This document shows, piece by piece, positions 26,810 to 27,589 of a stretch of DNA of 39,799 nucleotides (positions are counted from its first letter, which is position 1; each line of letters starts with the position of its first letter). A program made the translations under genes and the position numbers. The notes under the pieces were generated by a model. That model saw only the letters and a list, made by a program, of their open reading frames with translations. It had not been told where the DNA came from and did no database searches. Origin of the DNA: Crocinitomix sp. (GTDB taxonomy: Bacteria > Bacteroidota > Bacteroidia > Flavobacteriales_D > Crocinitomicaceae); NCBI GenBank assembly GCA_030836155.1, contig JAURQI010000098.1:1-39799 (forward strand). The letters are read 5' to 3'.

Positions 26810-27211
26810 GGGGCCGACTTGGATTTGACTGCAACTGCGGTAGACAAGTAAGCATGTCGAGAAATGCGATATACCTCGTTAAAAGTATTCGTAACAAGAA
26901 TAATTGACAACAATAATTCTTACGCGTTGGCTGCGTAATCTAAATGAATTTTAGATTCGCTTAGTTCACCCCAAGTTTAGTAAGGGAACCTCGCTGTCTG
27001 CTCAACTTCTGATCATTAAGTTGGGGTCACAGGCATCATATTTTTGATCTGGCTTCTGCAAAGCTGCGGTGTAGGAGTAAGATAAAGTAGCTTAGATATG
27101 GTGTGGGGTGTTTATGCCCAGCAACATATTGAAATTCAATCATAAACTAAACATGTAGAAAGCTTGTAGACTCATTGTTAGGACGAGGGTTCGATCCCCT
27201 CCGGCTCCACC
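26810..27211 (+). ncRNA. ssrA: tmRNA (transfer-messenger RNA)
   Basis: 5' GGGGCCG pairs with 3' CGGCTCC; T-arm GGACGAGGGTTCGATCCCCTCC; tag ORF GACAACAATAATTCTTACGCGTTGGCTGCGTAA (26906-26938) encodes DNNNSYALAA*; hairpin AATCTAAA...TTTAGATT directly after the tag stop. Confidence 0.95.
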
Positions 27212-27445
27212 TTCGCTCTTCGAAGCTTTAGCGAAGAAGAGCATTGTTCTTTCGAAGCTTCAGCGAAGAAGAGTATGGCTCTTTTCGCCGAAGCTACTCG
27301 AGCTTCGGCAGAGACCTCCACTGTTACTCTTCGCCAAGCCTTGACGAAGAAGAGTATTGTTCCTTCGAAGCCTTGGCGAAGATTCCCACAGCAGCGCTCC
27401 GAAGCTTAAGCGTAGGATAACATTGTCCCTCCGAAGCTTTAGCTG
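27211..27445. repeat. Irregular ~33-bp palindromic repeat array adjoining the tmRNA 3' end
   Basis: Seven degenerate copies of (T/C)TCGAAGCYTTAGCGAAGAAGAGtATTGTTC. Conserved GAAGC(-like) cores at 27222, 27254, 27290, ~27334, 27367, 27401 and 27433. Includes the perfect inverted repeat GCCGAAGCT-ACTCG-AGCTTCGGC (27287-27309). Confidence 0.85.
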
Positions 27446-27589
27446 AATATTTCAAATATTCTCCGTGTTTAAATGGGGGCAACTTTAATAGAATAAGAAT
27501 AGTATTTGGTTCATTTTGTAACCAATTCCAATATAGGGTATTACATTCCTACAACCAACTCAAGTTTAATCTCAAAAAACAAAAATCCT

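Follow-up and report, generated by a model that had tools for sequence, protein, structure and literature searches.

The tmRNA gene (ssrA) of a Crocinitomix sp. contig is followed by a run of short diverging hairpins, and the question raised by this locus is where such an array comes from and why it lies at the end of a stable-RNA gene. It had been predicted from the sequence alone that about seven degenerate palindromic copies begin at the tmRNA 3' end and represent either a dispersed REP/MITE-like family that expands next to stable-RNA genes or an RNA structure affecting ssrA 3' processing. We analyzed the contig stretch of 39,799 nt (hereafter the window) together with the rest of the genome and a large set of other bacterial genomes. 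Table 1 lists the features of the locus.

Table 1. Features of the tmRNA gene and the adjoining hairpin array, in window positions.
Feature	Sequence	Position	Strand	Basis
tmRNA (ssrA), host RNA gene		26810..27211	+	ARAGORN; Rfam RF00023
Hairpin 1 (left-end)	TTC-GCTCTTC-GAA-GCTTTAGC-GAA-GAAGAGC	27212..27242	+	R1 covariance model; covariation, 16 sequences
Unit 2	TTCGAAGCTTCAGCGAAGAA	27251..27270	+	TRF repeat; unit alignment; covariance model
Unit 3, read as motif 2	GCCGAAGCT/AGCTTCGGC inverted repeat and overlapping motif	27287..27321	+	comparison with L016 and L205
Unit 4, outer stem 8 bp	TACTCTTC...GAAGAGTA	27325..27356	+	covariance model
Unit 5	TTCGAAGCCTTGGCGAAGA	27364..27382	+
Unit 6	TCCGAAGCTTAAGCGTAGGA	27398..27417	+	covariance model
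Unit 7, truncated	TCCGAAGCTTTAGC	27430..27443	+
Perfect 8+1+8 palindrome closing the array	GAATATTTCAAATATTC	27445..27461	+	sequence

The description of the array in the original prediction was largely confirmed. Seven diverged hairpin units occupy 27212-27461, directly after the final tmRNA base, and the tmRNA tail CTCCACC forms the left border of the element described below. The units are spaced 32, 36, 45, 32, 34, and 32 bp apart, a range of 32 to 45 bp instead of the predicted 32 to 44 bp. The tandem repeat found by TRF at 27215-27284 (period 32, score 105) has the top score in the window. The units fold, as had been proposed: the array fold is better than that of dinucleotide shuffles (z -4.4, 0/200 shuffles as good). 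Both special features named earlier are present, namely the perfect inverted repeat with an ACTCG loop (GCCGAAGCT-ACTCG-AGCTTCGGC, 27287-27309, DNA fold z -4.5) and the terminal 17-bp palindrome, for which no counterpart was identified in relatives. Hairpin 1 has a 7-bp outer stem (27215-27221/27236-27242) and a GAA/GAA internal loop; it scores 60.4 bits (E 9e-13) against the R1 covariance model, of which this copy is one of the 16 building sequences. Unit 2 reaches 18.0 bits and units 4 and 6 reach 15.1 and 15.0 bits, units 1 and 2 thus being the best preserved. A T-run after hairpin 1 is absent in the window copy.

The prediction of a dispersed family did not hold in the array's own genome (3.19 Mb in 180 contigs, 94% complete). 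The unit pattern, with up to 3 mismatches allowed, was found at the array only; BLAST detected no second array copy in this genome and the R1 covariance model matched the array alone. Since the unit is found at one place, it is not a dispersed family there. The single Y1_Tnp (IS200/RAYT-type) ORF of the genome (174 aa, G000:C152:14952-15146) lies on another contig and is unrelated; no Y1_Tnp ORF adjoins the array, and a pattern search of that other contig found no palindrome of the array family. REPs carry a GTAG or CGTC tag (PMC3733652), which is absent from the unit ends here, the units reading TTCGAAGC...GAAGAA. It is thus barely credible that the array is a REP-like family mobilized by a RAYT/IS200-type HUH transposase: its imperfect palindromes of 20-40 nt are REP-like in size and one Y1_Tnp ORF does exist in the genome, but that ORF is not beside the array, dispersed copies and the tag are missing, and the enzyme linked to the palindromes in relatives is a GIY-YIG nuclease. 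REP/RAYT identity is refuted as far as tested, by the lack of dispersal, of a linked RAYT and of a tag, while the predicted association with stable-RNA genes survives in another form. The uniqueness of the unit in its own genome would also fit a purely local degenerate tandem repeat unrelated to mobile elements. This we regard as very unlikely, because hairpin 1 and a second motif (motif 2) can be recognized at the same type of site in 30-odd genomes of the order, and covariance-model matches are found at the tmRNA and tRNA tails of relatives.

In these relatives, the same hairpin 1 follows CTCCACC directly 3' of ssrA, and after it come motif 2 and an ORF encoding a GIY-YIG protein of ~78 aa. 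In another species of the same genus (L016), the tail end is repeated, and motif 2 and the ORF follow the second copy. The comparison shows the order of the intact element: RNA-gene tail, left-end hairpin, spacer, motif 2, short direct tail copy, and a GIY-YIG ORF of ~80 aa, with a total size of about 0.3-0.6 kb. The left-end hairpin has a symmetric TTC/TTC or GAA/GAA internal loop and often a T-run at its end, and the spacer sometimes holds a tandem array of more hairpins. Sixteen aligned left-end sequences share the form CCACC-TTC-(7-bp stem)-GAA-(inner stem)-GAA-(stem'); pairing holds in 99.4% of the cells, compared with 37-49% in slid controls, and 6 pairs show double changes with 23 double-compensated cells. 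A T-rich tract trails hairpin 1 in 18 of the 26 elements compared, so hairpin 1 is probably the terminator of the RNA gene in those elements. Tandem hairpin arrays are also found in copies that carry the ORF (L205, L254, and L295, the last at tRNA-Met). Array copy number varies among close relatives, a point raised by the original prediction, and L254, for example, has three near-identical ~110-bp repeats.

In motif 2, the tail of the RNA gene plus the left arm recur as their inverse complement. At tmRNA the two parts read, for example, TCCACC-TTC-GCCC and GGGC-TTC-GGTGGA, and at tRNA-Asp ACCGCC-TTC-GCTC and GAGC-TAT-GGCGGT; the mean match is 8.9/10 versus 6.1 in shuffles. The motif tracks the tail, being TCCACC/GGYGGA for tmRNA and ACCGCC/GGCGGT for the tRNA-Asp tail in L202, and a direct tail copy such as TCCAC usually comes after it. 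In the window, GAGC-TTC-GGCAGA-gacc-TCCAC at 27300-27321 falls in unit 3. Its inverse-complement match to the tmRNA tail TCCACC-TTC-GCTC is 8/10, a score that its own shuffles also reach. In L016 and L205 the ORF is preceded by a segment, CTTCGGCGGAGACCTCC, to which unit 3 is nearly identical. We read unit 3 as a putative decayed motif 2 followed by a direct tail copy, the score alone being insufficient for this assignment. No GIY-YIG ORF remnant was detected in the window (tblastn E at least 0.02), so it is hairpin 1, motif 2, and position that link the array to the element. We consider it likely that the array is what remains, in degenerate form, of a compact GIY-YIG/palindrome element that is apparently mobile and resides at tRNA and tmRNA 3' ends.

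The nuclease was examined by a protein search of 119 relatives, in which 32 genomes had a match. Three example ORFs score 50-59 bits against PF01541, and the catalytic Y, Y-G, R, and E columns are invariant in the relatives' GIY-YIG ORFs. NCBIfam gave no match for the nuclease, and Pfam gave the generic GIY-YIG domain only, plus a marginal T5orf172 match in one protein. A close subfamily is encoded directly behind tmRNA, tRNA-Ala, tRNA-Asp or a short tail fragment (L195, L198, L202, L203, and L205); for the ordinary GIY-YIG proteins recovered by that search, no RNA gene lies upstream. In the nuclease tree, built on the few columns of an 80-aa protein, the tail-associated clade stands apart from ordinary GIY-YIG proteins with support of 95/97, and the starred branches force at least six label changes for tmRNA. 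A profile scan of 396 Bacteroidota genomes, run with no RNA-gene condition, matched 115 genomes. Among the best 30 loci, 27 of 33 ORFs lie 3' of a tRNA or tmRNA gene at a distance of at most 900 bp, and the hairpin mostly starts within the RNA tail; the association is therefore wider than the SGxAF subclade first used. Neither plasmids nor viral contigs yielded a close relative, and the best phage matches are GIY-YIG proteins of ~43% identity or less. Stop-interrupted GIY-YIG ORFs were seen beside intact hairpins in G027 (L207/L025), G044 (L197), and G114 (L206). They may be steps on the way to the ORF-less state seen in the window.

Presence and absence of the element at a fixed, conserved site among close relatives is clear in two genera, g11 and g22. 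In g11 it is found at tmRNA in G078, G265, and G179, at tRNA-Ala in G194, and at an ectopic position in G191; G206, G722, G255, and G197 lack it and have native terminators (e.g., AAAAAGC...GCTTTTT), which hairpin 1 replaces in the sister species. In the tRNA-Ala copy of G194 the nuclease is about 95% identical; different RNA genes are occupied by closely related element copies. In g22, G087 has the element at its first tmRNA tail. In G313, with a tmRNA 99% identical to that of G087, the element lies at a tail duplicate about 150-200 bp farther downstream. Two ectopic copies (L198 and L205) carry 11-15 nt of the tmRNA tail. At the loci examined in relatives, an element at the RNA 3' end leaves the RNA gene intact. 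In these species-level comparisons the native terminator region has been replaced, which leaves the exact right borders undefined. The positions of the copies in the genomes compared and the discordance of the tree suggest that the element is apparently mobile. A stretch of ~87 bp after the ORF (L193 query 825-911) recurs at many g11 loci and may be a further repeat family or mark a favored right border. Five g22 ssrA 3' flanks (L255, L259, L261, L269, and L271) contain a different cassette, mostly with no GIY-YIG ORF: a second copy of the tail (about AACCCCTCCGRCTCCAC) lies roughly 100-200 bp downstream, the duplication enclosing a native terminator-like palindrome.

Related palindromes occur well outside this order. 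The exact 19-mer TTCGAAGCTTYAGCGAAGA matched at least 114 stretches in a scan of one-genome-per-species contigs, against about 4 expected by base counting. The matches come from Verrucomicrobia, Planctomycetes, Patescibacteria, Bacteroidota, Omnitrophota, Alphaproteobacteria, and others; no exact match was found in viral contigs. Some of them may be coding coincidences, as one frame reads FEALAKK. A 20-mer search with at most one mismatch in 18 of these genomes gave about 90 matches, and the reversed control gave 0. Flank complementarity runs three bases past the 20-nt core and then drops to chance level; the resulting palindrome is 26 nt long with variable compensated ends, the compensation being possibly inflated by shared ancestry of lineage-specific ends. 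The predicted clustering at tRNA and tmRNA 3' ends is found in these genomes: among the matches listed, 33 of 120 copies are within 150 bp of such a gene, whereas 3.5% of the positions in these loci are that close (binomial P about 1e-20, without correction for relatedness). The other 87 of the 120 listed are more than 150 bp away, which points to additional, independent spread of the 26-nt palindrome or to further roles for it. In seven copies the encoded CCA of the RNA serves as a stem arm, and left ends at tRNA-Ser, -Asp, -Ala, -Val, and tmRNA share the same TTC/TTC loop fold. A GIY-YIG protein is encoded at 16 of the 114 loci listed, in 15 cases within 500 bp of the palindrome, as judged with a profile built partly from the same loci. 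Verrucomicrobia copies (L044, L045, L065, L101, L109, L113, and L114) differ by a single additional C in the 3' arm (GAAGAACGGG); this lineage-specific variant is spread over the genome, with 15 matches in G059. A 1.1-Mb alphaproteobacterial MAG (G062; L049, L067, L086, and L088) has ten palindrome copies; those examined have TCC left ends and are not beside RNA genes, an apparent independent expansion of the bare palindrome.

How might such an element arise at an RNA tail? In the proposed mechanism, the GIY-YIG protein would cleave an empty RNA-gene tail, and repair of the break would copy the element in with the conserved RNA gene as left homology arm. The right junction would be non-homologous or micro-homologous, amounting to one-sided homing, and the inserted hairpins would restore a terminator or processing end. 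The hairpins are probably also single-strand or cruciform recognition sites, whose symmetric mismatched loop could let the protein distinguish the two strands, by analogy with other hairpin-recognizing systems. Fold-back synthesis at the inserted hairpin could produce the inverse-complement tail, which would account for hairpin flanks complementary to the tail at the site. The window copy would have lost its ORF, and its hairpins would have multiplied and decayed. On the best reading, the element's hairpin often replaces the terminator of the host RNA gene, and the array may affect ssrA 3' processing, as originally suggested, or termination. A stronger version, that the hairpins are primarily a terminator or 3'-processing stabilizer kept by the host with the GIY-YIG gene as a passenger, is in our judgment unlikely. 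Hairpin 1 does start at the mature RNA end, folds strongly as RNA, replaces native terminators in sister species and in most elements compared is trailed by the T-rich tract noted above; but most relatives have unrelated terminators, palindromes also lie far from RNA genes, motif 2 mirrors the tail in a way that a terminator does not need, and the GIY-YIG association recurs across several phyla.

Going beyond the remnant reading, the element may represent an undescribed minimal mobile-element class present in several phyla. Such an element would combine an ~80-aa GIY-YIG nuclease with nested palindromes, colonize tRNA and tmRNA 3' ends, and rebuild their terminators. Fold-back synthesis on the local RNA tail would supply its outer stems, and the 26-nt non-autonomous palindromes that it sheds would move from phylum to phylum. 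We put the chances of this larger proposal at about even. If it is true, small orphan bacterial GIY-YIG genes would gain a biological context as well as a target open to testing (the tRNA/tmRNA acceptor end), short palindromes common to several phyla would be explained, and one-sided homing or hairpin-mediated insertion could be studied in a very small system. The ssrA and tRNA 3' flanks of many Bacteroidota would then be element-derived, which bears on RNA 3'-end and terminator annotation.

Several known systems share parts of this organization. Free-standing GIY-YIG homing endonucleases include the phage T4 Seg proteins, among them SegB, encoded beside a tRNA cluster. Like them, the element is small, has a single GIY-YIG enzyme and is patchily distributed at conserved sites near tRNA genes. 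Unlike them, its protein of about 80 aa has no separate DNA-binding domain, it resides in bacterial chromosomes and was not found in viral contigs, and it has many RNA-gene targets and nested palindromes whose ends complement the target tail. Integrase islands use tRNA and tmRNA 3' ends as att sites; the target is the same and RNA-tail copies occur at the element borders, but the element is only about 0.5 kb and has an inverse-complement tail copy. At the loci examined, inspection of the ORFs revealed only the GIY-YIG ORF between tail and flank and no integrase ORF. With REP/RAYT elements (REPtrons) it shares short imperfect palindromes, some enzyme-linked and some solitary, but it uses a GIY-YIG enzyme and not a HUH Y1 transposase, lacks the GTAG/CGTC tag, and has variable compensated ends at RNA-gene 3' ends (PMC3733652). 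No description of the element or of the exact units was found in the open-access literature searched, within which the system appears undescribed. Short bacterial GIY-YIG proteins have been grouped near Slx1 in a non-eukaryotic Slx1-like cluster (PMC1564403), and the nuclease likely belongs to the same superfamily group. A term search of that survey found no mention of tmRNA or palindromes, whereas here the [GA]SGxAF subclade, together with its near relatives, is linked to hairpins and to the 3' ends of stable RNAs. Tandem GIY-YIG ORFs of constant spacing were also observed, with five copies every 450 bp at G560:C1:120132-122159 and further cases in G456, G377, and G400.
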